This document shows, piece by piece, positions 2,533-40,108 of a stretch of 43,148 bases of DNA (position 1 is its first letter; each line of letters starts with the position of its first letter). The notes beneath the pieces are model-generated. The model had not been told where the DNA came from, did no database searches, and saw only the letters and a list, made by a program, of their open reading frames with translations. The DNA is taken from positions 318,240-361,387 of the forward strand of contig JAPPFM010000010.1 in NCBI GenBank assembly GCA_028821605.1, written 5' to 3'. The translations under genes and the position numbers were made by a program. Origin of the DNA: Candidatus Poribacteria bacterium (GTDB taxonomy: Bacteria; Poribacteria; WGA-4E; WGA-3G).

Positions 2533-3017
2533 TCGATTTTTGATTGCGCTTCGGTGCTCGCTTTGAAGACAGCATTAACCGCACCAAAAAGGACAGGCAA
2601 ATTATCCATCGTCACACTTGTTCTATTTCGGGTAAAGGTGTTATCAACAAGCTGTCCAAACTGCCATAACGTTCCGTCGCTCACGATGCCGTAGACCGGA
2701 AAATCGGTATCCTCATTTATTTTTTGTGCGGCTACCAACTCGGATAGACATTGCCCCCAACCTTGATCAAAATCGTTCTTCTTTGCTTCGACGAGGATTA
2801 TCAATGGCGTTCCGACAACGGGGATGCCCAATTCGGATCTCGTTGAGATAAGATAATCAGGCGTTCCGTTGAGCGTTTCATCATAACTAATGGCTTTCTT
2901 TATCCAGAGCGCATAATCTCCTGCATAAGGTTTGTATACCTCCTTTAAAATCGGAAAGATAATTGCCTCACAACGCGCCGCCTCCGATATTTCGTACTGC
3001 TTTGTCAATGATTGCAT
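2529..3017 (-). CDS. PD-(D/E)XK nuclease-like hypothetical protein
   Basis: 162 aa from the ATG at 3017 (TTG 3008 is an alternative). The sequence has a GTPDYLIS segment followed by PLIILVEAKKNDFDQGW, which matches the PD...(D/E)xK spacing of restriction-endonuclease-fold proteins. It then has a hydrophobic helix and a YGIVSDGTLWQFG strand like those of type I restriction R-subunit N-terminal domains. It lacks helicase or methylase partners, so an orphan nuclease or a non-catalytic derivative is likely. The gene overlaps the end of the upstream WD40 gene by 50 bp in another frame, so the two are probably co-transcribed. Function inferred from motifs only. Confidence 0.65.
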   Translation of the reverse strand: MQSLTKQYEISEAARCEAIIFPILKEVYKPYAGDYALWIKKAISYDETLNGTPDYLISTRSELGIPVVGTPLIILVEAKKNDFDQGWGQCLSELVAAQKINEDTDFPVYGIVSDGTLWQFGQLVDNTFTRNRTSVTMDNLPVLFGAVNAVFKASTEAQSKID

Positions 3018-4989
3018 TCCAATCCCAGAGCAGCACTGTCCCATCCTCAGAACCGCTGGCAAGTGTCTTCCCATCGTGTGAAAATACCAAAGTTTCTATT
3101 GGCTCTGTATGTCCGGAGAGAGTTCCTAAATCCTCGCCGGTGTCCACATCTCGTAACTGGATTCGAGACTCACTCCATTTAGAATCAAGAAGCGTTTTTC
3201 CATCGGGTGAGAATATTAATATATCACTGAACCCTCGGTGATTATCAGAAATTACGCTGTGTTCCTGCATGCCTGTCTTTGTTACGTTCCACAAAGTAAT
3301 GCTATCCGTATGTCCCAGAGCAAGAATAGCATTATCGGGTGAGAATGCCAAGCTGCTAGCTCTCTCAGTGGTGAATGTTGGAAATTCGCGACGCGCGTCC
3401 ACATTCCATACTTGTGGAGTGCCGTGAATGCCGTATACAGCAAGCAGGGTTCCATTGGATGAAAACCTCAACTTCTTCGGGAACGGTGTTATCGTGTGAA
3501 ACCGAAATATTTCAACGCCAGTGCTCATGTTCCACCCACGAATGTCTTGAGGACCACGGGTTGCAAGGACTTTGTTGTCGGACGAGAATACGAATGGGTC
3601 CCGGGGGTCTGCACCATCCTGCCAAGATCCAAGGAGTTCCTCACCACTGGTTATCTTCCATAATTGTACTTTGAATCCTTGTTGGAAATGCCCCCCGCGA
3701 TGCCCCCATCCATACGGATCAAAGACGATTGTGCCACTTCTGCCTCGGCTGATAAAGTATGTACCATCCAATGAAAATGCGACCGTCTCAGTTAAATCAC
3801 TCTCTGCTTCGGTAAAGGTTATCAACTCTTGTGCTGTTCTCAGATTCCAGACTTCGACAATTCCATTAAACGCTGCACTCGTGAGTGTTGTTCCATTTTC
3901 AGTAAACGCGACCGCTTTCACCCACTCCGTATGCCCAGCGGTAAAGATAGCGAGTTCCTGTCCATTGTCAGGATCCCAAAACCGGATGGTGCCATCAGCA
4001 CTTCCGCTGGCAAGGCACCCGCTATAACGAGATGTTCCTTCTGGTGCGAAGGTTAGGGCATTAATAGTGTTTTTATGCCCTCTAAGCGTTGCAAGCTCAC
4101 GTTCCGTCTTGACATCCCACACCTTGATTAGTTTATTCGCGGCACCGCTGGCAACGGTTTTTCCATCAACCGAAAAGGCAACGGTAGTAACCACCTCTTC
4201 ATGCCCACTGAGTGTCGCTTGTTTAGTACCGTTCTCGGTATTCCACAGCAGTACTGTTTCGTCCTCACTCCCGCTTACGAGCGTTTTTCCATCTTGTGTG
4301 AACGCCAACATCCGAATTTCCGCTTCCCTTTCGTCCTGATCTGCTTCAAAAAAGCCCGCATGTCCATTGAGTGTCACCCTTCGTCTGCCTGTCGCTGTGT
4401 TCCACAAATGAATTTGTGTACCATTTTTGTCTCCAATGGCAACCATACCACCATGTTGAGAGAGTGCTGCTACCTCGTATGTGTCCACGTTTTTTGTGTC
4501 CGATAATTTTCTGCCGGTGTCCACATCCCAAGAAATAATATCACCAAATTTATCCAGACTTATCAGTGTTGTACCATCATCGGAGAATGCCAACGCTGTC
4601 GCTGAATCATGCCTCTCGGCTAATTTGAAAGTTGCGAGTTTGCTACCAGTCTCCAGTTCCCACAACTGGATGATTGGATTAGCGGCCCCACCACTTGCGA
4701 GAATCTTTCCATCTGGTGAGAACGCCAGCGCATTGACCTGCCCGCCGTGTCCTGTGAACAGAGCGGTTTCGTTTCCATTTGGGACATCGTATACCCAAAC
4801 CGCGACATCCGTTCCCACAACAAGGTGAGTGCCGTCGGGTGAGAACCGCATTAGGTTGATACCACCCTTTCCAAGCCGCGCAATTGCCCCGTCAGGTAAT
4901 CCCACTTTTGTATTGTCTTGCGCGAAACTGGTAGAGAGCATCGCGGCAATTGATAGAAAAGTGATGAAGAGTAAACGTTTCATTTTCAT
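2968..4989 (-). CDS. Secreted WD40-repeat protein, 14 blades
   Basis: 673 aa with a signal peptide (MKMKRLLFITFL...STSFAQ). The mature protein starts with a conserved cap LPDGAIARLGKGGINLMRFS and then consists of WD40 units to the C-terminus. Counting units with the SPDG...LASG...W-D pattern by eye, including the cap blade, gives 14, the number needed for two seven-bladed propellers. Several units are degenerate (RGWNM, QLRDV), and the ninth carries an insertion rich in Gly and Tyr. Such proteins act as interaction scaffolds; no enzymatic domain is seen and the partner is unknown. MKR at residue 3 is an alternative start. No clear Shine-Dalgarno (SD) is visible before either ATG. Confidence 0.88.
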   Translation of the reverse strand: MKMKRLLFITFLSIAAMLSTSFAQDNTKVGLPDGAIARLGKGGINLMRFSPDGTHLVVGTDVAVWVYDVPNGNETALFTGHGGQVNALAFSPDGKILASGGAANPIIQLWELETGSKLATFKLAERHDSATALAFSDDGTTLISLDKFGDIISWDVDTGRKLSDTKNVDTYEVAALSQHGGMVAIGDKNGTQIHLWNTATGRRRVTLNGHAGFFEADQDEREAEIRMLAFTQDGKTLVSGSEDETVLLWNTENGTKQATLSGHEEVVTTVAFSVDGKTVASGAANKLIKVWDVKTERELATLRGHKNTINALTFAPEGTSRYSGCLASGSADGTIRFWDPDNGQELAIFTAGHTEWVKAVAFTENGTTLTSAAFNGIVEVWNLRTAQELITFTEAESDLTETVAFSLDGTYFISRGRSGTIVFDPYGWGHRGGHFQQGFKVQLWKITSGEELLGSWQDGADPRDPFVFSSDNKVLATRGPQDIRGWNMSTGVEIFRFHTITPFPKKLRFSSNGTLLAVYGIHGTPQVWNVDARREFPTFTTERASSLAFSPDNAILALGHTDSITLWNVTKTGMQEHSVISDNHRGFSDILIFSPDGKTLLDSKWSESRIQLRDVDTGEDLGTLSGHTEPIETLVFSHDGKTLASGSEDGTVLLWDWNAIIDKAVRNIGGGAL

Positions 4990-24840: not shown

Positions 24841-27800
24841 CTAATCCATAGTATCAACCGTGAGGTCCCACAACAACACAGTGCCATCCGAACTGCCACT
24901 CGCCAGCGTTTTGCCATCCGGACTGAACGCTACGCTCGTAACACCGTCCCAATGCCTTTCAAGTGTGCGCAGCTGTTTGCCGGTGCGGACCTCCCACAAC
25001 ATCACGGTGCCAGCACCACCGGCACTCGCCAGCGTTTTGCCATCCGGACTAAATGCGACACTATGAACAGAACCCCGATGTTCTTCCAGTGTCCGGATGA
25101 GTTCACCCGACGCTGCATCCCAAAAGCGCACGGTCTTGTCTGAACTACCGCTCGCCAGTATCTTACCATCTGGACTGAACGCGACGGAAAGAACAATATC
25201 TCTATGTTTCTCTAACGTCAAAAGCGGGGTACCGCTATCCACATCCCATGTGCGCACGGTGCTGTCACTACATCCGGTTGCCAACATAGAACCATCTGGA
25301 CTGAAGGTTACGCTTGTGAACTTATCTCTATCCAGCATATCTATATGTTCATTAGTCTGATTATTCAACCTTATCGTTCTTATCCGTTTCCGTGTTTGCA
25401 TATCCCACAAATAGAGTAAGCCTTTATAATATGTACCCACAAGCGTTTTGCCATCTGGGCTAAATGCTACGTAGCAATACCCAGGAGAGCCTACGCTTAC
25501 TGGTTGGTACAGCCTAACGCCTTCAAGCCGGGGCAGAAGTACTACACCTGTTTTTATATCCCACAAAAACACGGTCTTGTCTAAACTGCTACCTGCGATT
25601 GTTTTGCCGTCCGGACTGAACGCTACGCTTGCGAGAGAATGATACTCCGCAACATTCTCCGTCTGAAGCAACTTACCCGTCTGCACATTCCACAAATGAA
25701 GTGTATGCAAACCGCCGCTCGCTAATATCCTTCCATCCGGACTAAACGCGATGCTCCTGATAGACTGTCTATGCGTTCCCATCTTCCGAAGTTCAAGACC
25801 GGTTTCCATATCCCATCGACGCACGGTATTGTATCTGTTGCCGCTTATGAGCGTCTTCCCATCTGGGCTAAATGCAAGGCTCTGGCTATCGACGCTATCT
25901 CCCAACGATCGCAGGTATCTCCCTGTCTGCACATCCCATAGATTGATCGTATGGTAACTTCCACCTGCCAGCAACTTCCCATCCGGGCTGAACACAACGC
26001 TTGCGACACCGTTGCTGTGACGCTCACGCAACCTATGAAGTGTCTCGCGTGTTTGGACATCCCACAAACGGGTGGTACTGTCTTCACCGGCACCTGCCAG
26101 CAACTTCCCATCTGGACTGAACGCGATGTCATAGACGCTGTACCTATCTCCGGTAAATGAGTGTAGTGGTTTCCCTGTCTGCACATCCCATAATCTCACC
26201 GTTTTGTCCAAGCTCCCACTTGCTAATGTTTGACCATCGGGACTGAACGCTACACTACTGACACTATTTTTATGTTCCGCCAGCCCCCGCAGAAGTGTCC
26301 CGGTTTGCACATCCCACAGACGGATGGTCTCGTCATCGCTTGCGCTTGCGAGTATCTTCCCATCCAGACTGAACGCTACAGCATTGATATCGCGTTCATG
26401 TCCGTGCAGCGTCTGAAGTTCAGTGCCAGTTTTCATATCCCACAAACGAATGGTGGTGTCTATACTTGCACTTGCCAATAGAGTATCGTCCGGACTGAAT
26501 GCTACGCTTGTAACCCAATCCGTATGTCCAGTCAGCAGATTGAGTGGTTTGTCTGTCTTTGTGTCATATATCCAGATACCGATGTTACATATTGCTGCTA
26601 AACGTTTTCCATCATTGGAACTGGCGATGTTTCCCGTTATCACGCCTTTGCCCAACCGTGCTTTCGCGCCTTTAGGTAAGTCCTGTAAATGCAAATCTTG
26701 TGGGGCTTGCACGCCGGTGTTTTGGGGAACAATGCCTGCTGTTATATCCCACAAAGTTATGACACCACTGCACAGACTGTAAAGCACTTTTCCATCCGAA
26801 CTAAATTCCAACTTTTCAACCCTACCATTACCTATGTCAAACATACGGAGCAGCTGCTTTCCGCTGACATCATAAATCTTCATAACCCCTGCCGTATCCG
26901 CAATCACAAGCAATTTGCCATCGGGACTGAAGGCAAGGGTGACGATACCCCTTTTATGCGTGTAGGGAAATGGCTGCTGTTCGCCGGTGTCCACATCCCA
27001 CAGATAGATATTCGGGTCATAAGCCGCAGCAGCGATTGTTTTTCCATCCGGACTAAAGGCGATGTCTACGATGCCTCTTGCAGGTCCACGGATTACCCGC
27101 TTTTGTTCACCCGTGTTGGTATCCCATAAACGGAGGGTCATATCTTCGCTTCCACTGGCGATTGTTTTTCCATCTGGACTGAACGCGAGACTCTCAACCC
27201 ATCCCTTATGTTCTTTGATAATTTTCGCCTTACCTGTTGTTGTATCCCATAGACGGAGAGTATTATCAAATCCGCCGGTGGCAAATGTTTTGCCATCTGG
27301 ACTGAAGGCAATACATGCGATCTGTGCCGTATGTCCTTTGAATGATAGTTTCGGCCTATCTATTTTCATGCCCCATAGGGTGGTATCGATTTCCGTGAGG
27401 ATCCCATTCAAGTGTTTCGGTATATCTATTTTCATGTCCCATAAATAAGCGGTCTGGTCGGTTTCCATCGTAGCGACTGTTTTTCCATCTGGACTAAAGG
27501 CGATATCTGCAGCACCCCTGGTGTGGATTCTCTTTACCAATTTTGGTGATCTGGGCATTGTGATATCGAATAGATACGGGGTGTTAGACCCACTCAGAGC
27601 TGCAAGTTTTTTCCCATCATGACTCAATGAAAATTTGGAGAAAGTGTCGTAATCATCTTCCACTGACAGCGTATTTTCACCGGTATTGACATCCCATTTA
27701 CGTAGGGTGCCATGTTCGCTGCAACTGACGAGTGTAGACGAATCCTTAACGAAGACGACAGCCGAAATACGGCTTTGGTGTGCGGTGAGAATTTTGCGGG

Positions 27801-28650
27801 GTTTACCTGTGTTTGCATCCCACAAATGGATACGTCCGTCTCTACATCCTGCGGCTAAAAGTTCACCATCCTGACTATAGACGATACACTCTATACCTGT
27901 CATATCGCCGGTAAGTGTGTCTGTTTGTTGCCATGTTTTTGTATCCCACAGAAAGATGTTGCTGTCCCCACTGATACTTGCCAACGCGCTGCCGTCCGGA
28001 CTGAACATCATGTTTTTCACAGTATTAGTGTGTCCTTTAAGTTCGTGTTTGCGTTCCCCTGTTGCTGTATCCCAAATGGAGATGGTGTCCGGTCCGTCTC
28101 CCGCGGCGAGTAGCGTTCCATCTGGTGAGAACGCTATGCTGTGAATGAATGTTTCTTTCTCGTCTGTTCTCTGAAGTGTTCTCTCTAACTTTCCAGTTTT
28201 AGCGTCCCATATACGAGTGGTACTTTCTCCGCTCCCGATTGCGATTTTTCCCATTTTTGGGTTGTAGGTGAAGCAGATACCGGCGACAAATTCAATGTCT
28301 TGTAGTGCTTGTGAGAATGTGTCGAGATACCAGATATGTAAGTAGTCAAAAGTATCGCTACGTGCGATGACGTTGATACCTGGAGGAAATGCGGAGTTAT
28401 ACAGCCTCGGAGTGTTAAGGATAACGCTGGTGAGCTGCAATGTTGTTGCATCGTATATCCAAATACCTGTCCCACTGATGATGTCGATCCGTGTGCCGTC
28501 TGCGGAGGACTGAACATCGCCAACTCGTCCTTTCCCAATTTGTGCTATGATGCCTTTGGGAGGTGGAAAGGTTTCTTGGGCGATGAGGGTAGGTGTGCAT
28601 AAAAGCGTTATCCAGAGTGGTATCAAGATCAAGGGTAATCTATTTTTCAT
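24841..28650 (-). CDS. Secreted giant WD40 protein, 28 blades
   Basis: 1269 aa from the ATG at 28650 (AGGAGA eight bases upstream), with a signal peptide (RLPLILIPLWITLLCTPTLIAQ). It carries two cap segments of the type KGAKARLGKG...GIWIYD, one near residue 35 and one near residue 655. Each cap opens an array that I count as 14 WD40 blades, so the protein could form four seven-bladed propellers. The second array is far more regular than the first and closely resembles the neighbouring 622-aa protein, indicating duplication and fusion. No other domain is present. Likely an extracytoplasmic scaffold. Confidence 0.9.
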   Translation of the reverse strand: MKNRLPLILIPLWITLLCTPTLIAQETFPPPKGIIAQIGKGRVGDVQSSADGTRIDIISGTGIWIYDATTLQLTSVILNTPRLYNSAFPPGINVIARSDTFDYLHIWYLDTFSQALQDIEFVAGICFTYNPKMGKIAIGSGESTTRIWDAKTGKLERTLQRTDEKETFIHSIAFSPDGTLLAAGDGPDTISIWDTATGERKHELKGHTNTVKNMMFSPDGSALASISGDSNIFLWDTKTWQQTDTLTGDMTGIECIVYSQDGELLAAGCRDGRIHLWDANTGKPRKILTAHQSRISAVVFVKDSSTLVSCSEHGTLRKWDVNTGENTLSVEDDYDTFSKFSLSHDGKKLAALSGSNTPYLFDITMPRSPKLVKRIHTRGAADIAFSPDGKTVATMETDQTAYLWDMKIDIPKHLNGILTEIDTTLWGMKIDRPKLSFKGHTAQIACIAFSPDGKTFATGGFDNTLRLWDTTTGKAKIIKEHKGWVESLAFSPDGKTIASGSEDMTLRLWDTNTGEQKRVIRGPARGIVDIAFSPDGKTIAAAAYDPNIYLWDVDTGEQQPFPYTHKRGIVTLAFSPDGKLLVIADTAGVMKIYDVSGKQLLRMFDIGNGRVEKLEFSSDGKVLYSLCSGVITLWDITAGIVPQNTGVQAPQDLHLQDLPKGAKARLGKGVITGNIASSNDGKRLAAICNIGIWIYDTKTDKPLNLLTGHTDWVTSVAFSPDDTLLASASIDTTIRLWDMKTGTELQTLHGHERDINAVAFSLDGKILASASDDETIRLWDVQTGTLLRGLAEHKNSVSSVAFSPDGQTLASGSLDKTVRLWDVQTGKPLHSFTGDRYSVYDIAFSPDGKLLAGAGEDSTTRLWDVQTRETLHRLRERHSNGVASVVFSPDGKLLAGGSYHTINLWDVQTGRYLRSLGDSVDSQSLAFSPDGKTLISGNRYNTVRRWDMETGLELRKMGTHRQSIRSIAFSPDGRILASGGLHTLHLWNVQTGKLLQTENVAEYHSLASVAFSPDGKTIAGSSLDKTVFLWDIKTGVVLLPRLEGVRLYQPVSVGSPGYCYVAFSPDGKTLVGTYYKGLLYLWDMQTRKRIRTIRLNNQTNEHIDMLDRDKFTSVTFSPDGSMLATGCSDSTVRTWDVDSGTPLLTLEKHRDIVLSVAFSPDGKILASGSSDKTVRFWDAASGELIRTLEEHRGSVHSVAFSPDGKTLASAGGAGTVMLWEVRTGKQLRTLERHWDGVTSVAFSPDGKTLASGSSDGTVLLWDLTVDTMD

Positions 28651-28761
28651 AGGTATGTTCTCCTGTGTGGTGTATTTTTTGGTATGAGATTGGGTTGTCA
28701 TCAAGTTTGTCGGTGAATTTTTTGGATTGAGGATTACGCCAAATCAACGTCGAATGTGCTT

Positions 28762-28788
28762 GGCAGAATACGCTTTTGGTATTCTGCC
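28762..28788 (-). terminator. Hairpin between the two WD40 genes
   Basis: A perfect 10-bp stem GGCAGAATAC (28762-28771) / GTATTCTGCC (28779-28788) with a 7-nt loop, in the 159-bp gap. No T-run follows, so Rho-independent termination is uncertain. Confidence 0.45.
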
Positions 28789-28809
28789 TGATTCGTCGGC
28801 GCGTGCCTG

Positions 28810-30678
28810 CTACTGTTCAAATTTTAGGTCCCACAAATACACGATGCCACCATTTGAAATCGCTAACATCTTTCCACCCGGACTGAACACAACGCTTTGT
28901 GGACCTACCCTTCCGCGATGCGCCTCGAGTATCCTCAGATGTTTGCCAGTGTGAACATCCGATAGCATCACAAAGCCATCATGAGATCCGTTCGTCAGTA
29001 TCTTTCCATCCTGACTGAACGCGATGCTATAGATAGATCTCCAATCCGCTTCTATCGTCCGAATTGGTTCACCTGACACCGCATCCCATAAAAGTATGGT
29101 CCTGTCCCGAGCAGCACTTGCAGCTATCTTTCCATCTGGACTGAATGTTACACTATAAAGTGGTTTATCCAACGTCAAGAGCGGGACACCGGTATGTCCA
29201 TCCCACGTGCGCACGGTGTCATCATATCCCCCGCTTGCCAATAGAGACCCGTCCGGACTGAACGCGATGCTATGGGCATTCGCCTGGTGTGCCTGCATCC
29301 TATTTATAAGTAGACCTGTTTGCATATCCCATAGATAAACATAGCCACCACCATCTACAGCTGCCAGCCTTTTGCTATCTGGGCTAAAGGCAACCCTTAT
29401 AACCCCAAAAGTTTCTCCAGGCAGTGCCGGAAGTGCTGCACCCGTTTTTATATCCCACAAACTCACGGTACTATCATAACTGCCACTCGCTAATATCTTT
29501 CCATCCGGACTGAAGGCTACGTCATTAACAGACTTCGTATGCCCTTTTAGGGTCCGCAGCAATGCACACGTCTGCACATCCCACAAGTAGACATCATTGT
29601 TCCCGGTGGCACCTGCCAGCGTTTTACCATCCGGACTGAACGCGATGCTACGGAAATCCTGCGTATGCGCTACCATCTTCCGAAGTTCTTTACCGGTTTC
29701 CACATCCCACAGGCGCACGGTGTCGTCTTCGCTACTGCTGATCAACGTTTTTCCATTTGGGTTAAATATAACGTTCACGCGACCATAAGTATGCCCAGAT
29801 AACACCCGCAGCGGTTTCCCGGTCCGCACATCCCACAGCCGAATAGTATAATCATAACTCCCACTTGCTAACATCTGTCCATCTGGACTAAACACAACGC
29901 TTTCGACAGCATTCGTATGCCCGTCCATTATTCGCAGCAATTCTCCGGTCCGCACATCCCACAGCCGCAACCTTTGGTCCCTACTCCCGCTTGCGAGTGT
30001 CTTCCCATCCGGGTTGAATGCTACGCTACGGACACCACTTTTATGCCCTGTCAACACCCGAATCGATGCTCCCGTTTCCACATCCCAGAACTGGATGGTC
30101 TTGTCCTCACCGCCACTTGCAAGTATTTTTCCATCCGAACTGAACGCGACACAATAAACAAACCTCAGATGTCCTGTCAGGGTCCGAAGATGCGTACCGG
30201 TTTCCACATCCCACAGACGTATAGTCCCGTCTTCACCTGCGCTTGCTAACAGTGAACCCTCTGGACTGAACGCTACGGTGAGGATCGAATGTACATGTCC
30301 TTGCATCATGTGTAGTTCAGTGCTGGTTTCCACATCCCACAAACGGACGGTGCTGTCCACACTCCCGCTTGCTAAGAGAGACCCATCTGGGCTAAACGCT
30401 ACGCTTATAACCCAATGCGTGTGTCCTGTTATCAGATCAAGGGCTTTGTCTGTCTCTGTGTCGTAGATCCAAATACCGATACCACTCGCGACTGCTAAAC
30501 GTTTGCCATCATCGGAAATCGCGATATTTCCTTTTATCTCGCCTTTACCGATCCGTGCTTTTACGCCTTCGGGTAAGTGCCGCAAATGCCAGTCCTGTGT
30601 GTCTTGTGCGATAGTGTTTCCGGGAATAACACATATTGCCAGCACAATCGCTAAAATCAAAATCAATGTCCTTTTCAT
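28810..30678 (-). CDS. Secreted WD40 protein, 14 blades
   Basis: 622 aa with AAAAGGA about 11 bases before the ATG and a signal peptide (MKRTLILILAIVLAICVIPG...AQ). A cap LPEGVKARIGKGEIKGNIAI...GIGIWIYD is followed by 13 further WD40 units of high regularity (GHxxxVxSVAFSPDG, LASGS, IRLWDVxTG), giving 14 blades, two complete propellers. It is the likely donor or sister of the second half of the 1269-aa neighbour. The near-identical units at DNA level make unit gain or loss by recombination likely. Confidence 0.9.
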   Translation of the reverse strand: MKRTLILILAIVLAICVIPGNTIAQDTQDWHLRHLPEGVKARIGKGEIKGNIAISDDGKRLAVASGIGIWIYDTETDKALDLITGHTHWVISVAFSPDGSLLASGSVDSTVRLWDVETSTELHMMQGHVHSILTVAFSPEGSLLASAGEDGTIRLWDVETGTHLRTLTGHLRFVYCVAFSSDGKILASGGEDKTIQFWDVETGASIRVLTGHKSGVRSVAFNPDGKTLASGSRDQRLRLWDVRTGELLRIMDGHTNAVESVVFSPDGQMLASGSYDYTIRLWDVRTGKPLRVLSGHTYGRVNVIFNPNGKTLISSSEDDTVRLWDVETGKELRKMVAHTQDFRSIAFSPDGKTLAGATGNNDVYLWDVQTCALLRTLKGHTKSVNDVAFSPDGKILASGSYDSTVSLWDIKTGAALPALPGETFGVIRVAFSPDSKRLAAVDGGGYVYLWDMQTGLLINRMQAHQANAHSIAFSPDGSLLASGGYDDTVRTWDGHTGVPLLTLDKPLYSVTFSPDGKIAASAARDRTILLWDAVSGEPIRTIEADWRSIYSIAFSQDGKILTNGSHDGFVMLSDVHTGKHLRILEAHRGRVGPQSVVFSPGGKMLAISNGGIVYLWDLKFEQ

Positions 30679-30913: not shown

Positions 30914-32506
30914 CTATTTTTTTATCAACATCTTCCGAGTCGCAGTAAATTCCCCTGCTGTAAAAGTGTAGAAATAGACACTGCTTGCCACAGGTTCACC
31001 TTGCGTATTTCTGCCATCCCAATACGCCGCACGGGAACGTTGATGATAGATGCCGGCAGATTGATACCCTAAGTTGAGCATCCGAACCAATTTTCCATCT
31101 GCAGCATAGATGGAAATGCTAACATCAGCGGGGATTGCCAGTTGATACGGTATCCATGTTTCGGGATTAAAGGGATTTGGGTAATTGGGCAGAAGTGCTG
31201 TTTCTTTCGGTACGAATAGCATCACAAGGTGCTTTAGCACGCGCATACCCCTTGCGAGTGTTGGATCACGTAGATCAAGTCCTTGGGCTTGAGTGATCCA
31301 GGTGTGGATGTCTCCAGCTTGTAAATCTAGATATTCGCGATGCAATCCGCTAAAGGTATATTGGGATGGTGCAGCTGCCTCCTCGCCCATTAGGGCTGCA
31401 GCCAAGACAATATCACGAATATTAACGGTGCCATCACGGTTCACATCCGCAGGATCAGGACCTGTTCGCCCTAAACGTGTGGCAATGCGTACGAGATCCA
31501 GGATATTCACGACTCCGTTGCCATCAACATCTGCATCTAAGGGGCGTTGTTCAGGAGGTACCAGTTCTTCACCCGTAACGAGTACCGCGAATTCTGATAG
31601 CGCATTGGGATTTTGCACCAGGGTCTGAAAGTCCGGATCCCGGATCATCGCTCTGACACTGGAGTTCCCTTTAATAAATGTTATTGCCTCATCATCCAAA
31701 CCGAACTGGGCAAGGAGGTCTGGGTTCTCAGCGACAGTATTTATCGTGAGAGGGGTCAAAAGTATTTGGACCTCCGGTTTCTGAAGATGTGACAGGACGG
31801 TCGGAAGTACCTCTTGAATCTCTGGGTCTTGGAGTGTGGCGCGATATTTTTGAAACAGGTGTGTAGCGAGCGAAATATCTAAAGTCGCGGTAGGCAGGGA
31901 AGTCCTAAAATCACTCGGCGCGAGATAGATGTCGAAGAACATCCCCCAATTCCATAGATTATCGCTCACCTTAACGAGTAAAAGGTTATCGCCAGCGTTT
32001 AGGTTGACGCGGAACAGGTCTTGGATGCCGGTTGTGCCTCTGTCCACGTTATTTACGTGAACCACTTTACCGTTGAGCCACACTTTAACAGCGTCGTCAC
32101 TTCCGACACCCATCGCGACATTTTTTCGATCTCGGACCGAGACAATGTTAATCAAAGCATACGCAGAGTGGTAGTCCAACCCCCGGTCACTGCTCAGCCC
32201 TATCCGATTGACAACGCTGTTGACATTATCTGATCGGCAGTGCCAACGCCAGAATAAGCAATCGACCTCCGGGAAGATCTGTCCGCGTGTCCATGGCAAC
32301 TGCCCTACGGTATCGCCTTCGTTTACGCCGTATTCAGCGACAAGGTTTTCAGTGGTTTTCCCTTTACTTGCGGCAGCTAACTGATCGCTATCTATATCAG
32401 CACCACTGGCAATCATCCAGAGCCAAGGACCGTCTATATAAGCCTCAGCGGAAAAACAAAAGGTTCCTATAAATACTAAAGTTTGGACAATTTTAAGAAT
32501 TCTCAT
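30914..32506 (-). CDS. Secreted dockerin-containing protein with C-terminal sorting-type domain
   Basis: 530 aa with a signal peptide (ILKIVQTLVFIGTFCFSAEA). The N-terminal 200 residues form a beta-sandwich with KVWLNGKVVHVNN and LNAGDNLLLVKVSDNLWNWGMFFDIYL, like the carbohydrate- or PA14-type domains of secreted hydrolases. A helical linker follows, then a dockerin type I repeat pair, DADVDGNGVVNILDLVRIA and DPADVNRDGTVNIRDIVLA (Ca-binding DxDGxGxxNxxD loops). The last 85 residues (NYPNPFNPETWIPYQL ... TATRKMLIKK) form a FlgD/Por-secretion-like C-terminal domain. The dockerin implies binding to a cohesin partner not seen here. Confidence 0.85.
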   Translation of the reverse strand: MRILKIVQTLVFIGTFCFSAEAYIDGPWLWMIASGADIDSDQLAAASKGKTTENLVAEYGVNEGDTVGQLPWTRGQIFPEVDCLFWRWHCRSDNVNSVVNRIGLSSDRGLDYHSAYALINIVSVRDRKNVAMGVGSDDAVKVWLNGKVVHVNNVDRGTTGIQDLFRVNLNAGDNLLLVKVSDNLWNWGMFFDIYLAPSDFRTSLPTATLDISLATHLFQKYRATLQDPEIQEVLPTVLSHLQKPEVQILLTPLTINTVAENPDLLAQFGLDDEAITFIKGNSSVRAMIRDPDFQTLVQNPNALSEFAVLVTGEELVPPEQRPLDADVDGNGVVNILDLVRIATRLGRTGPDPADVNRDGTVNIRDIVLAAALMGEEAAAPSQYTFSGLHREYLDLQAGDIHTWITQAQGLDLRDPTLARGMRVLKHLVMLFVPKETALLPNYPNPFNPETWIPYQLAIPADVSISIYAADGKLVRMLNLGYQSAGIYHQRSRAAYWDGRNTQGEPVASSVYFYTFTAGEFTATRKMLIKK

Positions 32507-32870: not shown

Positions 32871-34670
32871 CTACTTCCTTATCAGCATTTTACGTGTGGC
32901 AGTAAAATCACCAGTTTTAAGTGTATAGAAATAGACACCACTTGCGACGGGTTCACCTTGTGCATTTCTGCCATCCCAATACGCTGCCCGACTTTTGCTC
33001 CGATACATTCCCGCAGGTTGATGTCCTAATGCTAACTTCCGAATTAAGCGACCGTCCGCTGCATAGATACTCACTGTAACCTCCGCAGGTTTAGATAATT
33101 TATAGGGTATCCAAGTCTCTGGATTAAAGGGATTCGGGTAGTTGGATAACAAGACTGTTTCTTTCGGAATCGCTTTTGACAAGGCAGGTGCTGCGGGTGC
33201 ATTTTGGAATAGATTTAGTCTATTCTCCTGCTGATTATACTGAAAAAAATAAGTGGGAGCATCGTCGTTGTTCTCGCTAAATTGGGCGGTTCCCAGGGTA
33301 TGAGAGCGGTAAGTAACCAATTGATCGTCGGCGATGTAATCAAATCGGATCCTGGGGTAACTTGATGGCACATTCTGTCCATTCGACCAGTGAGTGCTGA
33401 CAAAACCTGTCTGAAGAAAATAGGGTTGCCAATCGTGGCTATTTGACCACCTGATTTGGTAAGGGACAGGAACGCCGGTGTTGTTTCTAATTTTGAATAC
33501 CTGTTTAGGGTAGGTCCGTGGGGGCGGTAGGGCAACCAAATTAACGGGAACAGCATCCAGCAATGCCTTTACGTTTCTCGCAGGAACGACTACTGCCAGA
33601 TTTTCATCTGTCCTTGCGGTAAGAATCCCGATAAGCATCCCTTGATCGTTGAGTACAGGGCCACCGCTATTGCCTCCCTCCGCACCACCACTTATCAGTA
33701 AGCAAGCTTCATCGCTTGGCAAACAAATCTCCCGCGGTGTTAGAAAAGTTCCGTCTGTCCAGTTCCAGATTTGGTTCCCTGGATTCCCCAAGATGTGAAC
33801 CTTATCGCCTTCCCTCATGCTATCTTCAATATTTTTACTAAAGTCGTGCTTAATTTCGCGGGCAGTCGTTGGAATTGAAGCGAGCTGAATAATTGCGAGA
33901 TCATCTCTAACATTTTGGACAATGACGCGCCCCTTATTAGCATAGCCTTGTCTCTCAAGCCATCCCGTATTTGTCCCATAAAAGCTGCTATCCTTATTGA
34001 GGTATCCGTTCTCATCTCGCCATGGAAAGAACACAACTATCTGCTCGGCATTGCGTATCACATGTTCATTTGTAACGACGAGGAGGCGTTCTTTGTCAAT
34101 CAAGACTCCGCTTCCTTTATTTCCGACTCCATTCCCTTGATTGGTCTCTATCCACACCACAGAATCAATTGCCTCATCGTAGATTTCCTGCGCTAACTGG
34201 TATGGAAGACGCGTTTCACCAGGAATAGTGTGTGAACCGCCATTACGATATTCATAAAGCGTCTCCTGTTTTAAACTCCTACTATCGAAATTACTCTTTA
34301 GAAGATCGCCCGCATTCGTCTCTACGGCGGTAAATATCTCTGAAGAATGTATCCAAAATGGAAAGCTGTCTCTTGTTGCATGGTCGGGTGGTCTGATTTC
34401 TTTCCCATCATGACCTATCATTCGAATATACACCGACGTATTAGACTGCGGAACCGGTAGGTTGATGGTGGCATTGGGTTCGATTTTATACCAACCTTGT
34501 GTGCGCCAACCTTCTGGCCAATTGTTGTCAGCGGGTTTCCATGTCGAATACACTGCCCAGGCAGCTTCTGTCGCATTGCCATTGGTAATACGATAATCTG
34601 CTGTTGTGAACTGCGTTAAAGTGAGTGTGGTCGTCACAAAAACGAAGATATAAAAAAGTTTCTTATACAA
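32871..34670 (-). CDS. Secreted trypsin-like serine protease with C-terminal sorting-type domain
   Basis: 599 aa with a signal peptide (KLFYIFVFVTTTLTLTQFTTA). An N-terminal beta domain (YRITNGNATEAAWAVYSTW...GWYKIEPNATINL) resembles DUF1036-type modules. The protease domain spans about 165-375, with catalytic His203 (VVTNEHVI), Asp256/257 (VRDDLAII) and Ser335 (GGNSGGPV). A second beta domain (PVPYQIRWSN) follows, and the last 85 residues repeat the NYPNPFNPETWIPY...TATRKMLI domain of the neighbouring dockerin protein. It probably degrades extracellular protein after export by the same route as its neighbour. Confidence 0.9.
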   Translation of the reverse strand: MYKKLFYIFVFVTTTLTLTQFTTADYRITNGNATEAAWAVYSTWKPADNNWPEGWRTQGWYKIEPNATINLPVPQSNTSVYIRMIGHDGKEIRPPDHATRDSFPFWIHSSEIFTAVETNAGDLLKSNFDSRSLKQETLYEYRNGGSHTIPGETRLPYQLAQEIYDEAIDSVVWIETNQGNGVGNKGSGVLIDKERLLVVTNEHVIRNAEQIVVFFPWRDENGYLNKDSSFYGTNTGWLERQGYANKGRVIVQNVRDDLAIIQLASIPTTAREIKHDFSKNIEDSMREGDKVHILGNPGNQIWNWTDGTFLTPREICLPSDEACLLISGGAEGGNSGGPVLNDQGMLIGILTARTDENLAVVVPARNVKALLDAVPVNLVALPPPRTYPKQVFKIRNNTGVPVPYQIRWSNSHDWQPYFLQTGFVSTHWSNGQNVPSSYPRIRFDYIADDQLVTYRSHTLGTAQFSENNDDAPTYFFQYNQQENRLNLFQNAPAAPALSKAIPKETVLLSNYPNPFNPETWIPYKLSKPAEVTVSIYAADGRLIRKLALGHQPAGMYRSKSRAAYWDGRNAQGEPVASGVYFYTLKTGDFTATRKMLIRK

Positions 34671-37112: not shown

Positions 37113-38138
37113 TTAGGTTTGGGATGTAGTAGCGTCCTTATATTTGAAGTTGAGTCGTTTCAAGATAGTATATTCGTTTTCTTTCGCCTGAAATACGACT
37201 TGTTTACTACTGTTGATTTCGCTGAGCGTTAACTTTCCCTTTTGATGTCCTGAGACGCGTAGGAAGCCGTGTTTGACATGTTTGACGAGTGCATTCTTGA
37301 CAGTATTGAGACACCGGGTGCCACCATATCTATTTCGTCTCCTACCTCTCGCCTCTTGTTCACGGTGGAGACACCTGCGTTTGATAGGTATCGATGCTAT
37401 ACAAAATATATCTGTGTTGTCAGGTATATTCTTTCCACCAACAGCATGATATGCCAGACACCAACTATCTACACAATGTGCGTCAAAGGTTTCTGACATC
37501 TTGTCTGACGACTTCTTTAGTCCTAACCTATCGCGTATCTCTTTGGTTTCCCACCCTTGAAGTGTTCGCAACTCCCACCGCTTTCGGAGTTCACGATAGA
37601 ACCACCGTTTACCAACTTCAAGTGGGCTAAACGATTGATTCCACTTCTTCGCACGTTCTATTGTCGGTGCCCTAATATCCTCTACGCAGACCTGCGTAAC
37701 TGGATACAGCTTCGACAGCCAATGAAGTATCCGTAGTTTCCAATTCCACCTCGCACGAGTGCCCGCGGGTATTCGTTCTCTATTCGCAAGGCGGTTGGTT
37801 CTGTTAGGACGGTTCGGACACTTACGAGAGCGTCTACGCCTGCGCAACTCACGACGCTTCGCTACTTTCTTACCCACTTTATTATGAGCGTCCGCCTGCA
37901 CATTCAAATAGGTATGCTTTTCTGATTTGACGGTAAACCCCTCTTTCTTACTACCGGGGTCTACACCGACAACAATATCTTGTATTTCTCTGTCAGACGG
38001 TTCTTTGTTCAGACGGATACAATAGATACCGTTATCCCAATAGGGTGTTGCCTCGCCACGCTTGATAAGTTTTCTTGCTCGTGCGGCATGCAGAGGCATC
38101 AGTTGTTGTCCGTCTTTGGTTTTTACAGGCACAAACAT
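37113..38138 (-). CDS. isrB: IsrB-like RNA-guided nuclease (RRXRR domain)
   Basis: 341 aa from the ATG at 38138 (AAAGGAG 11 bases upstream); the frame extends further upstream but without family sequence. Order: PLMP-type N-terminus (MFVPVKTKDGQQLMPLHAAR), RuvC-I (VVGVD60PGS), an Arg-rich bridge helix (KRRELRRRRRSRKC), RuvC-II (VCVE153DI), RuvC-III (DAH221CVD224SW) and a C-terminal domain (RRNRYGGTRCLNTVK). Only 67 residues separate RuvC-II from RuvC-III and hold no HNH motif. That distinguishes IsrB (a nickase in studied members) from IscB. All three RuvC acidic/His positions are intact, so it may be active with the RNA encoded just upstream. Confidence 0.85.
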   Translation of the reverse strand: MFVPVKTKDGQQLMPLHAARARKLIKRGEATPYWDNGIYCIRLNKEPSDREIQDIVVGVDPGSKKEGFTVKSEKHTYLNVQADAHNKVGKKVAKRRELRRRRRSRKCPNRPNRTNRLANRERIPAGTRARWNWKLRILHWLSKLYPVTQVCVEDIRAPTIERAKKWNQSFSPLEVGKRWFYRELRKRWELRTLQGWETKEIRDRLGLKKSSDKMSETFDAHCVDSWCLAYHAVGGKNIPDNTDIFCIASIPIKRRCLHREQEARGRRRNRYGGTRCLNTVKNALVKHVKHGFLRVSGHQKGKLTLSEINSSKQVVFQAKENEYTILKRLNFKYKDATTSQT

Positions 38139-38155
38139 AAGTTTGTATTCTCCTT

Positions 38156-38346
38156 TGCAGGGTGTGTTGTCCCTTCCAGATCGCAATATCCAAGTGGTAT
38201 CAGACGAGGGGAGTATCCGATACATTCAGCTGGCTACCACGCCAAGATACTACGATATATTACTGTAGAAAACCGTTTATCTTGTGGAGTGGACGCTCGG
38301 TATGCGCTTCGCACAAGCCCAAGTCTTTAGACTTGGGTAGTTGACT
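38156..38346 (-). ncRNA. Presumptive omega-RNA of the IsrB-like element
   Basis: About 190 nt on the minus strand lie between the element end and the nuclease start, where IscB/IsrB guide RNAs are encoded. Reading 5' to 3' it begins GTCAACTACCC, folds a perfect 8-bp hairpin (38337-38318), then a CTTGTG...CACAAG stem enclosing a TGCG-AAG-CGCA hairpin, and ends near the SD of the gene. The guide would be the flanking host bases 38347 and up. Structure and boundaries are inferred. Confidence 0.55.
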
Positions 38347-38351
38347 TCTTC

Positions 38352-39152
38352 CTACGTCTCCAATACCGGGCGATTTAATCGAGAGTGATACGGAGGTTCC
38401 ATAACAGCACGCTGGCGTTCATTTGCCCACTCCGGTATTGGATATGCAGGCACATAAGCCATATTGCCTGCCGTATAGCGTGTTAAGATGGAACGGCGCG
38501 GATGGTCTGCGGTCCATGGGAGCGTTCCGTGTGTCACCGCCTCCGTGAAAATTATCACATCCCCCGCATCGCAGACGAGCGGCCGGATGTGCTCTTGGTG
38601 TTTCTGGTAAAGCCGCATCTCTTGCGGACACGGGTAGTTGCTCTTATGGCTTCCCGGAATAACGATTAACCCACCTGCTCCTTCGGGGACATCCGTCAAC
38701 TGAAAGGTGACAACAGTCAAGCCGTTGTGCATGCGTCCATCACGGAAGATATAATACTGGTTCGGATCGAAGCCGGGACCGGAGGATCCGTGAAAGATAA
38801 AGCCTTCCGCACCTTTGTCCATTGAGAGCAGGAACATGTGGTGATCCATGCGGAAGCCCTTGCCGAGTATCTCGTTGAGATATGGGACAAGTGTCGGATG
38901 CGCGAGCATGTGTCGGAACGGATTGCACCACGGTTCTTCCCAGTTGAGCATACCGCCGAGTTCACCTCTGCCGTGCTCGCCTTCCAGTTCTGCGGAACCG
39001 CCATCAAGTGTCTGATCGGGTGGACGGATGCGTGCTTGGTCACTATGTTTGTCAATCGCTTCGTTCGCGAGGGTTACCTCTTCAGGTGTTAGCACATTCT
39101 TGATAACAAGGTAACCGTTGAGATCGAATAGATATTTTTCATCAGCATTCAT
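38352..39152 (-). CDS. PhyH-family dioxygenase, tandem paralog A
   Basis: 266 aa from the ATG at 39152, preceded by CCGTAAGGAAAGCTAAAAA, a member of the recurrent leader. Motifs: DLNGYLVIKNVLTPEEV at the N-terminus, FHGSSGPGFDPNQYY, GLTVVTFQLTDVPEGAGGL, IPGSHKSNYP, and AGDVIIFTEAVTHGTLPW with the distal His, then HPRRSILTRY with the 2-oxoglutarate Arg. A WHxD motif is not seen; the proximal ligand is probably the His in FHG, as in a PhyH subgroup. It is the downstream of two tandem copies with about 30 differences in 266 residues. An IS605-type element sits 5 bp behind its stop. Confidence 0.88.
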   Translation of the reverse strand: MNADEKYLFDLNGYLVIKNVLTPEEVTLANEAIDKHSDQARIRPPDQTLDGGSAELEGEHGRGELGGMLNWEEPWCNPFRHMLAHPTLVPYLNEILGKGFRMDHHMFLLSMDKGAEGFIFHGSSGPGFDPNQYYIFRDGRMHNGLTVVTFQLTDVPEGAGGLIVIPGSHKSNYPCPQEMRLYQKHQEHIRPLVCDAGDVIIFTEAVTHGTLPWTADHPRRSILTRYTAGNMAYVPAYPIPEWANERQRAVMEPPYHSRLNRPVLET

Positions 39153-39266: not shown

Positions 39267-40067
39267 CTACGTTTCCAAGGTGGGACGGTTTAATCGCGAA
39301 TGATAAGGTGCTTCCATAACAGCACGCTGGCGCTCATTCGCCCATTCCGGTATTGGATATGCAGGGGCATACGCCATGTTGCCTGCGGTATAACGGGTTA
39401 GAACGGAGCGTCTCGGATGGTCGGCTGTCCACGGAAGCGTTCCGTGCGTCACCGCCTCCGTGAAGATTGCCACATCCCCAGCGTTGCAGACGACTTGTCG
39501 GATATGCTCTTGGTGTTCCTGGTAGAGCCGCATCTTCTTCGGGCACGGGTAGTTGCTCTTATGGCTTCCGGGTATAACGATTAATCCACCGACTCCGGGT
39601 GGCACATCCGTCAATTGGAATGTGACGACAGTCAAGCCGTTGTGCATGCGTCCGTCACGGAAAATATAGTATTGGTTCGGATCGAAGCCAGGACCGGAGG
39701 AGCCATGGAACGTATGCCCCTCTGCACCCTTGTCCATTGAAAGCAGGAACATCTGATGATCCATTCGGAAGCCTTTTCCGAGTATCTCGTTGAGATATGG
39801 AACAAGTGTCGGATGGGCGAGCATGTGCCGAAACGGGTTACACCACGGTTCTTCCCAGTTGAGCATACCGCCGAGTTCCCCTCTCCCCTGTTCACCTTTT
39901 AAGTCCGGGGAGCCGCCATCGAGTGCCTGTTCGCGTGGACGGATGCGTCCCTGATCACTATGTTTATCAATCGCTTCATTCGCTATTGCCACCTCTTCAG
40001 GTGTTAACACGTTCTTGACAACGAGGTAACCGTTCAGATCAAATAGATATTTTTCGTCAGCGTTCAT
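39267..40067 (-). CDS. PhyH-family dioxygenase, tandem paralog B
   Basis: 266 aa from the ATG at 40067, with GGAGG nine bases upstream. It has the same length and motifs as paralog A. Most differences cluster at residues 42-60 (REQALDGGSPDLKGEQ here against PDQTLDGGSAELEGEH) and at 195-215, and the catalytic region is unchanged. The 114-bp gap to paralog A has no strong terminator, so they may be co-transcribed. Recent tandem duplication is likely. Confidence 0.88.
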   Translation of the reverse strand: MNADEKYLFDLNGYLVVKNVLTPEEVAIANEAIDKHSDQGRIRPREQALDGGSPDLKGEQGRGELGGMLNWEEPWCNPFRHMLAHPTLVPYLNEILGKGFRMDHQMFLLSMDKGAEGHTFHGSSGPGFDPNQYYIFRDGRMHNGLTVVTFQLTDVPPGVGGLIVIPGSHKSNYPCPKKMRLYQEHQEHIRQVVCNAGDVAIFTEAVTHGTLPWTADHPRRSVLTRYTAGNMAYAPAYPIPEWANERQRAVMEAPYHSRLNRPTLET

Positions 40068-40108
40068 GTTCGATGTCCTCCACCTCATAAATGGTTGTCA
40101 GCCATCGG

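Follow-up and report, generated by a model that had tools for sequence, protein, structure and literature searches.

Why should secreted WD40 proteins, built from units that could each be gained or lost singly, arrive at 14 blades? The question is raised by a stretch of 43,148 nucleotides from the sponge-associated Candidatus Poribacteria bacterium (GenBank assembly GCA_028821605.1, contig JAPPFM010000010.1, positions 318,240 to 361,387 of the forward strand; hereafter the window, meaning all the DNA analysed at this locus), which encodes three such proteins, P0001, P0002 and P0003. A sequence-only reading had claimed that all secreted WD40 proteins here have blade counts in multiples of 14, that each set begins with the same cap, itself a blade, and that the double propeller is the inherited unit. 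Based on the present data, we consider it likely that these secreted twin-ring WD40 proteins belong to a very large family of paralogs in Poribacteria, that ring closure fixes their unit number, and that P0001 is a fusion. The features concerned are as follows.

2968 to 4989, minus strand: P0003, secreted 14-unit WD40 protein of 673 aa, with the cap PDGAIARLGKG at 4864-4896.
24841 to 28650, minus strand: P0001, secreted WD40 protein of 14 + 14 units, by alignment a fusion of two neighbouring 14-unit genes; its ATG is at 28650, and a longer open reading frame (ORF) opens upstream with TTG at 28704.
28810 to 30678, minus strand: P0002, 622 aa, with a signal peptide, the cap and 13 further WD40 units in two predicted seven-bladed rings.
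30541 to 30573, minus strand: cap start of P0002, PEGVKARIGKG; the strand of residues 39-43 probably closes ring 2.

Counted by eye on the translations, P0003 and P0002 have 14 blades each and P0001 has 14 + 14, in agreement with the sequence-only reading. A looped profile hidden Markov model (HMM) gave 14, 14 and 13 + 14, the skipped unit being the diverged unit 2 of P0001 module 1 (YLHIWYLD), which occupies an otherwise empty stretch of about 35 residues; HMMER by itself likewise returned 13 + 14 for P0001, with a gap of 58 residues at that unit. The shared cap is real, with P, G, A, GKG and W-x-YD invariant across the four copies in the window, and it forms a blade of its own, as had been proposed, with strands at residues 48-73 in the P0002 model. 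All three proteins match the Pfam WD40 model PF00400 (P0001 650 bits, P0002 440, P0003 222; cut-off 27). Among the curated NCBIfam models, none named P0002 or P0003 at a score over its cut-off, and P0001 barely passed the generic NCBIfam domain delta_60_rpt (76.7 versus 76.5 bits). Since P0001, P0002 and P0003 each start with a signal-peptide-like stretch followed directly by the cap, they have no space for an NTPase domain N-terminal to the propellers such as WRAP-type STAND/NLR sensors carry.

AlphaFold2 was run on P0002 with an alignment of 37 related sequences. The model (mean predicted local distance difference test score, pLDDT, 91.0; predicted template modelling score, pTM, 0.85) contains 56 strands by a count of the listed elements, or 14 blades of four, as a structure prediction was expected to show if the count by eye was right. 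Residues 45-325 or 45-337 superpose on the closed seven-bladed rings of WRAP-T, WDR5 and G-beta with deviations of 1.0-1.7 Å over about 280 residues, with 7bie_A aligned to residues 45-337 at 1.1 Å. The best full-chain match is the 14-bladed WRAP structure 2ymu (Z 46.5, root-mean-square deviation 9.6), also the closest solved relative by sequence, and the deviation of 9.6 is read as two rings at a differing mutual angle; Foldseek likewise matched the full-length model to 2ymu and 1nr0. Several WDR5 rows span residues 37/38 to 620 yet align just 287-288 residues, and the simplest reading is that they cover ring 2 (from about residue 342) together with the N-terminal strand 39-43. As modelled, P0002, the window protein whose structure was predicted, has the architecture of a tandem seven-bladed WD40 double propeller of the 2YMU and 1NR0 type, with its rings placed as follows.

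29668 to 30546, minus strand: ring 1 of P0002, residues 45-337, predicted as seven complete four-stranded blades from 28 contiguous strands.
28819 to 29667, minus strand: ring 2 of P0002, residues 338-620, predicted with 27 strands, the 28th apparently supplied by the N-terminal strand.

We propose that the cap combines the first blade with an additional strand at the N-terminus. Ring 1 would then have seven complete blades and ring 2 another seven, the last completed by that strand, so that both chain ends would meet in ring 2 and bind the pair into one unit. Losing or gaining one blade would leave a ring open or require an eight-bladed ring, and such changes would mostly be selected out; this would be why 14 (7 + 7) dominates, with 16 (8 + 8) and 15 as tolerated minorities. 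Recombination between repeats may meanwhile replace or homogenise interior blades at unchanged number.

The 28 units of P0001 do not represent a larger inherited unit. At three related loci (L095, L096 and L097; L235 and L238 were taken as identical to L095 and L097), P0001 is represented by a pair of neighbouring genes, one for each half. Both genes encode a signal peptide and 14 units; in L095 and L096, one unit of the first gene is visible to the decoder only. The relevant parts of P0001 are:

26737 to 28560, minus strand: module 1, from the cap PKGIIAQIGKG (28528-28560) through the last unit, ITLWDITA; 14 units, of which unit 2 is diverged.
24859 to 26676, minus strand: module 2, the cap PKGAKARLGKG (26644-26676) and 13 further units.
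26695 to 26736, minus strand: fusion junction, where DNA alignment places the absence of the gene 1 stop, the spacer, the gene 2 start and most of its signal peptide, all present in L095, L096 and L097.

The junction is in frame and retains the old signal peptide end, IVPQNTGVQAPQD; by this alignment, P0001 is the product of a short in-frame deletion that joined two tandem 14-unit genes. In four further genomes (L232, L233, L234 and L236) a gene of the same gap pattern stands as a separate ORF, a comparison by gap pattern and not residue by residue. A second fusion was found in genome G038 (L231, 1206 aa), joined at the same place, within the end of a signal peptide, and with 14 units followed by 13; the 13th unit of the second part is broken by a frame change, and the other frame carries a further unit. 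In a closed chromosome, L188/L189 (G004:2036500-2074500) hold 16 consecutive WD40 ORFs of the same strand, 15 of them capped and some overlapping. Such a tandem row is a setting in which fusions like P0001 can arise.

The cap matches 54 places in the genome of the window at E<=1.4e-5, is found at E<=1e-10 in 74 of the 84 genomes of the phylum (own genome included), in numbers reaching the 82 candidates scored per genome, and has 112 matches at E<=1e-6 in the closed genome G004. The 79 nearest named loci, from the best 80 of at least 519 relatives, are all labelled Candidatus or uncultured Poribacteria except one from Latescibacteria (L140:2493-7400, plus strand), in which seven units, a linker of 120 residues, and a cap with 13 units lie in one protein. 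We counted units in the ORFs of 43 stretches of the own genome, chosen around cap and WD40 matches, on which its counts rest, plus the window, of the 79 named loci and of 58 G004 stretches. An array was called clean if it was uncut, had one cap in first place, had no gap of more than 25 residues and scored more than 5 bits in each unit. This left 35 of 52 cap ORFs in the own genome, 97 of 149 at named loci and 77 of 114 in G004; those dropped (own/named/G004) were cut by an end (0/19/2), had unclear units (16/25/34), had a cap that was not single or not first (1/1/1) or duplicated the G004 chromosome (0/7/0). The last are the seven ORFs of L116, L119 and L146, which lie on that chromosome (OX639973.1) and were left out of the final 209. 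They remain in the first-pass unit counts, the listing of 16-unit loci, the register-offset, high-identity and clustering/best-match totals and the 46 close pairs; from the analyses of position specificity, ring junction, divergence classes, column 35 and cap motif, identical sequences were removed, but not these loci as such.

Among the 209 clean arrays, 146 have 14 units, 15 have 7, 12 have 15, 8 have 13, 6 have 16, 5 have 11 and 4 have 12; rarer sizes are 4 units (4 arrays), 3 and 6 units (3 each) and 5, 8 and 19 units (1 each). The own genome (n = 35) has 23 arrays of 14, 5 of 7, 3 of 13, 2 of 15 and 1 each of 6 and 8, and closed G004 (n = 77) has 56 of 14, 6 of 15, 5 of 13, 4 of 7, 3 of 12, 2 of 16 and 1 of 3. 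HMMER and decoder counts were equal in 182 of the 209, and in eight odd-sized members read unit by unit the counts of 13, 15 and 16 were real; several 13-unit arrays with an N-terminal domain of 330 residues have 14 or 15 units by HMMER and were probably undercounted. The rule of multiples of 14 holds within the window but not across the genome, and in its strict form it is not borne out, given the arrays of 15, 16, 13, 12 and 11 units: the count across the cap proteins of related genomes finds 14 in 146 arrays and neither 7 nor 14 in 48.

The 16-unit members indicate what is being kept. Their size is shared by L155, L117, L127, L147, L162 and G004:5883376, and L129 has 15 or 16 units depending on the method. 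A model of L155 (751 residues, 7 sequences, pLDDT 80.6, pTM 0.78) has 64 strands by count. Its best matches were ODA16, Rsa4/NLE1, TBLR1, Sif2, Fbw7, Cdc4 and the designed Tako8, at 2.4-3.2 Å over 316-339 residues spanning 33 to 739, whereas WDR5 fitted more poorly (3.7-4.1 Å). The titles of the Tako8 structures state that it is eight-bladed, and we take the six natural proteins to be eight-bladed WD40 rings as well. In the model, ring 2 would be eight-bladed, with the N-terminal strand apparently closing it, and eight blades are left for ring 1; because the second ring fits eight-bladed structures and there are 64 strands, 16 is best read as two eights. Together with the spread of sizes from 11 to 16, this makes the rule two closed rings and not fourteen, so that 14 is a strong preference and not a law.

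The strongest competitor is descent alone, in which one ancestral 14-unit gene was duplicated often and its number rarely changed, without any constraint from the rings. We examined this with 53 representative 14-unit arrays, picked by single-linkage clustering, in which roughly half of the proteins ended up chained together in a single cluster. Overall, 36-37% of units found their best match in other proteins at the position that they occupy themselves (chance 7.7%), close relatives mostly share their count, and the cap, unit 2 and unit 14 are kept in place, all of which descent alone would predict. However, in paralogs with a cap identity below 0.5 the best match stayed at its own position for 49% of units 2 and 51% of units 14, but for only 6-17% of units 3-13, and these distant paralogs still have 14 units. 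Units are also replaced between orthologs without a change in number: P0002 and its L096 ortholog both have 14, with identities of 0.62, 0.50 and 0.57 at units 3, 4 and 5 and 0.76-0.95 at the others, while every unit of P0002 is at least 0.74 identical in L095 and L097. In 19 of 46 close 14/14 pairs, some of them doubled, at least one unit was replaced. Moreover, arrays with an internal identity above 0.55, which appear recently homogenised, have 14 units in 13 of 20 cases, duplicates not yet removed. By these comparisons, turnover affects the interior blades and spares the cap and units 2 and 14. Mean identity by register offset (0.392 on register, 0.37-0.39 off) had suggested little position conservation; it was superseded by the best-match analysis, in which the ends are conserved and the interiors only among closer relatives. 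Descent alone is a real contender, but we judge it to be the less probable account.

A second alternative, that the inherited unit is a single seven-bladed ring and 14 merely two in a row, appears improbable. It gains from the 15 cap arrays of exactly seven units, from the capless WD40 proteins of the own genome, which mostly have seven (13 of 20 clean), and from L097:1331-2491 (plus strand), in which a signal peptide directly precedes units like P0002 units 8-14 and one further, weak unit, the cap and the larger part of ring 1 being absent. We read the last as the outcome of a deletion in which the cap and ring 1 were lost and some seven blades stayed behind. Against it, most seven-unit cap proteins have no ARxGKG motif. 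Near the cap start, 169 of the 181 clean arrays with 11-16 units carry R-x-G-[KR]-G, compared with 1 of the 15 that have seven units (5 of 19 when 6- and 8-unit arrays are included; Fisher p 7e-11, relatedness ignored), so that 14 of the 15 lack the ARxGKG strand, and an ARxGKG cap, as judged from these arrays, marks two-ring proteins. Nor was there a cap-first array of 21 units among the 209, or a clear excess of matches seven positions apart, as ring duplication would give: none was seen at offset 7 within arrays, and between arrays the signal was unclear (observed/expected 1.06 at -7 and 0.78 at +7 for all pairs, up to 1.35 at -7 for distant pairs).

Some positions carry sequence signatures. 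Of the 146 arrays with 14 units, 124 have L at column 35 of their last unit, against 3.5% of interior units. After units 2 and 14 the most position-specific units are 7 and 8 (8.2 and 8.6 bits, versus 5.6-6.4 for the rest), a signature of the ring boundary. That boundary can be read from sequence only moderately: when the junction was placed in held-out arrays, 7|8 was chosen in 54 of 145, where chance is about one in ten, and in arrays of 11, 12, 13, 15 and 16 units the signal was too weak to place a boundary.

That the number is an artefact of counting or assembly, with repeats collapsing or expanding and the eye rounding to 14, is hardly credible and already largely refuted: the blades are alike, P0001 module 1 has just 13 by automatic count and the genomes are drafts, but the one-contig chromosome of G004 has 14 in 56 of 77, two counting methods concur for 182 of 209, the P0002 model has 56 strands, and the mean synonymous difference (pS) between units is 0.29-0.49 even in the eight least synonymously diverged arrays, too much for easy collapse.

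What the blades may be doing is suggested by their variation. In L231:1357-4974 (minus strand) the units are near-identical, but in codons 11, 12, 14, 30 and 32 each of the three bases varies, and neighbouring codons scarcely vary. Nucleotide diversity at these five codons of the 42-codon unit is 0.55-0.68 (mean 0.63), against a mean of 0.15 elsewhere; columns 30, 14, 32, 12 and 11 rank first in that order, while all 20 units have GAC as codon 31. Nonsynonymous difference (pN) at the five codons is 0.64 in module 1 (elsewhere pN 0.09, pS 0.20) and 0.63 in module 2 (elsewhere pN 0.17, pS 0.25). L231 was used in neither choice of hypervariable columns, which were initially picked from arrays that also served as the test. 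In eight census arrays with mean pS below 0.5, pN at the five columns was 0.56 versus a pS of 0.42 elsewhere, and was the higher in seven of the eight; in arrays with pS of at least 0.65 the top four of the 42 columns were 12, 14, 30 and 11, with 32 outside the top eight. A diversity-generating retroelement was considered for L231 and found unsupported, with no RVT_1 reverse transcriptase match in the one genome checked, its own. Residues at such positions usually belong to the face with which WD40 rings bind their partners. High ratios of nonsynonymous to synonymous substitution (dN/dS) are described for fungal HNWD receptors at positions 10, 11, 12, 14, 30, 32 and 39 in the parts of PMC12222747 consulted. 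The fastest-varying unit positions fall among these, which suggests a secreted recognition repertoire; the HNWD-like excess at partner-binding positions was seen in L231 and in the least diverged arrays, the window arrays being too diverged for a clear test.

Several observations weigh against our account. The 48 arrays of neither 7 nor 14 units have to be accommodated, as do 75 cap ORFs excluded for unclear units (16 own, 25 related, 34 G004), many of which look like 14 with diverged blades. Because the paralogs are related to one another, common descent accounts for part of the excess of 14, as the same-position best matches show. Eight close pairs differ in unit number. The lost position identity of interior units could be saturation and not exchange, the two being not fully separable for distant pairs. 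The closing strand was assigned to ring 2 of P0002 from aligned ranges. For the window and most relatives the genomes are drafts in several contigs, where misassembly can alter repeat numbers, although closed G004 has the same mode. Finally, the surface-column excess is gone in more diverged arrays (pN > pS in 12/37, 7/56 and 0/20), and since it fades with divergence, selection is suggested for the least diverged arrays only.

On balance, the idea of the double propeller as the inherited unit survives in modified form. In its favour are 14 as the commonest size, the two seven-bladed rings modelled for P0002, the signature at the 7/8 boundary and a size that outlasts the turnover of interior blades; the 15 seven-unit arrays, the odd sizes and the eight-bladed second ring of the 16-unit model count against strict multiples of 14. 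The pair of wheels rather than the single blade seems to be what is inherited. Since the five most variable residues per blade lie at the usual WD40 partner-binding sites, an extracellular role in recognition is most likely, and the family would most likely be a set of putative extracellular recognition proteins that bind ligands. A broader proposal is more speculative and, in our judgement, less likely than not: Poribacteria may possess a secreted twin-ring WD40 receptor repertoire, with more than 100 genes in some genomes, held at 7 + 7 (rarely 8 + 8) through closure by the cap, with shuffled blades and five hypervariable codons, as an extracellular counterpart of fungal WD40 allorecognition receptors.

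Double propellers of this kind have been documented elsewhere. Actin-interacting protein 1 and other eukaryotic tandem pairs (1NR0, GEMIN5, SSU processome proteins) carry two rings per chain, as P0002 does, and Foldseek aligns the full model with them; the title of 1nr0 states two seven-bladed domains. They differ in having about 20% identity to P0002 and in being intracellular. The WRAP domain of Npun_R6612 from Nostoc punctiforme (PDB 2YMU) also has 14 WD40 blades in two seven-bladed rings, according to the parts consulted of PMC6805158 and PMC9218822. However, it is preceded in its chain by a STAND ATPase and its blades hardly differ from one another, whereas the poribacterial proteins have signal peptides, the ARxGKG cap start and families of tens per genome. 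The HNWD receptors HET-D and HET-E of Podospora anserina have been modelled as two seven-bladed rings with the second closed by an N-terminal d strand; they have homogenised repeats and high dN/dS at set positions, the registers being compared by number and not residue by residue. They differ in being fungal intracellular NLR sensors, with active alleles usually of 11 canonical plus three cryptic repeats (all from the sections of PMC12222747 consulted). WD40 domains were reported to be highly abundant in single-cell genomes of Poribacteria, many with a C-terminal sorting domain (Kamke 2014), while blade counts, ring architecture and the cap do not appear in the parts consulted of that paper (PMC3909097). 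An arrangement of 15 as 7 + 8 is known from a Gymnopus protein (section 3.2 of PMC9218822), and the discussion in that paper, as far as consulted, ties no counting system to propeller amplification. Double seven-bladed chains, 14-blade arrays, 15 as 7 + 8 and the abundance of WD40 and sorting domains in Poribacteria are already known. In titles and abstract openings of the open literature, within the reach of the search terms used, we found nothing on the blade numbers, cap or fusions of this family.

The window also contains other genes on the minus strand. An RRXRR-domain protein (37113-38225; PF14239, E 5.6e-30) sits between two genes that directly adjoin each other in L095, and so looks like a mobile insertion of the window genome. 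Two very similar phytanoyl-CoA dioxygenase-like genes lie in tandem at 38352-39152 and 39267-40088, the second matching Pfam PhyH. The secreted proteins at 30914-32506 and 32871-34670 both end in much the same kind of FNPETWIPY...FlgD_ig-like tail; one of them matches dockerin and the other is a trypsin-like peptidase.

With dozens of members per genome that keep two rings despite the turnover of blades, the family makes a folding constraint on repeat number measurable, and it supplies matched relatives of 14, 15 and 16 units for experiments. If partners do bind at the variable surface positions, the family would also be a candidate recognition repertoire of sponge symbionts.

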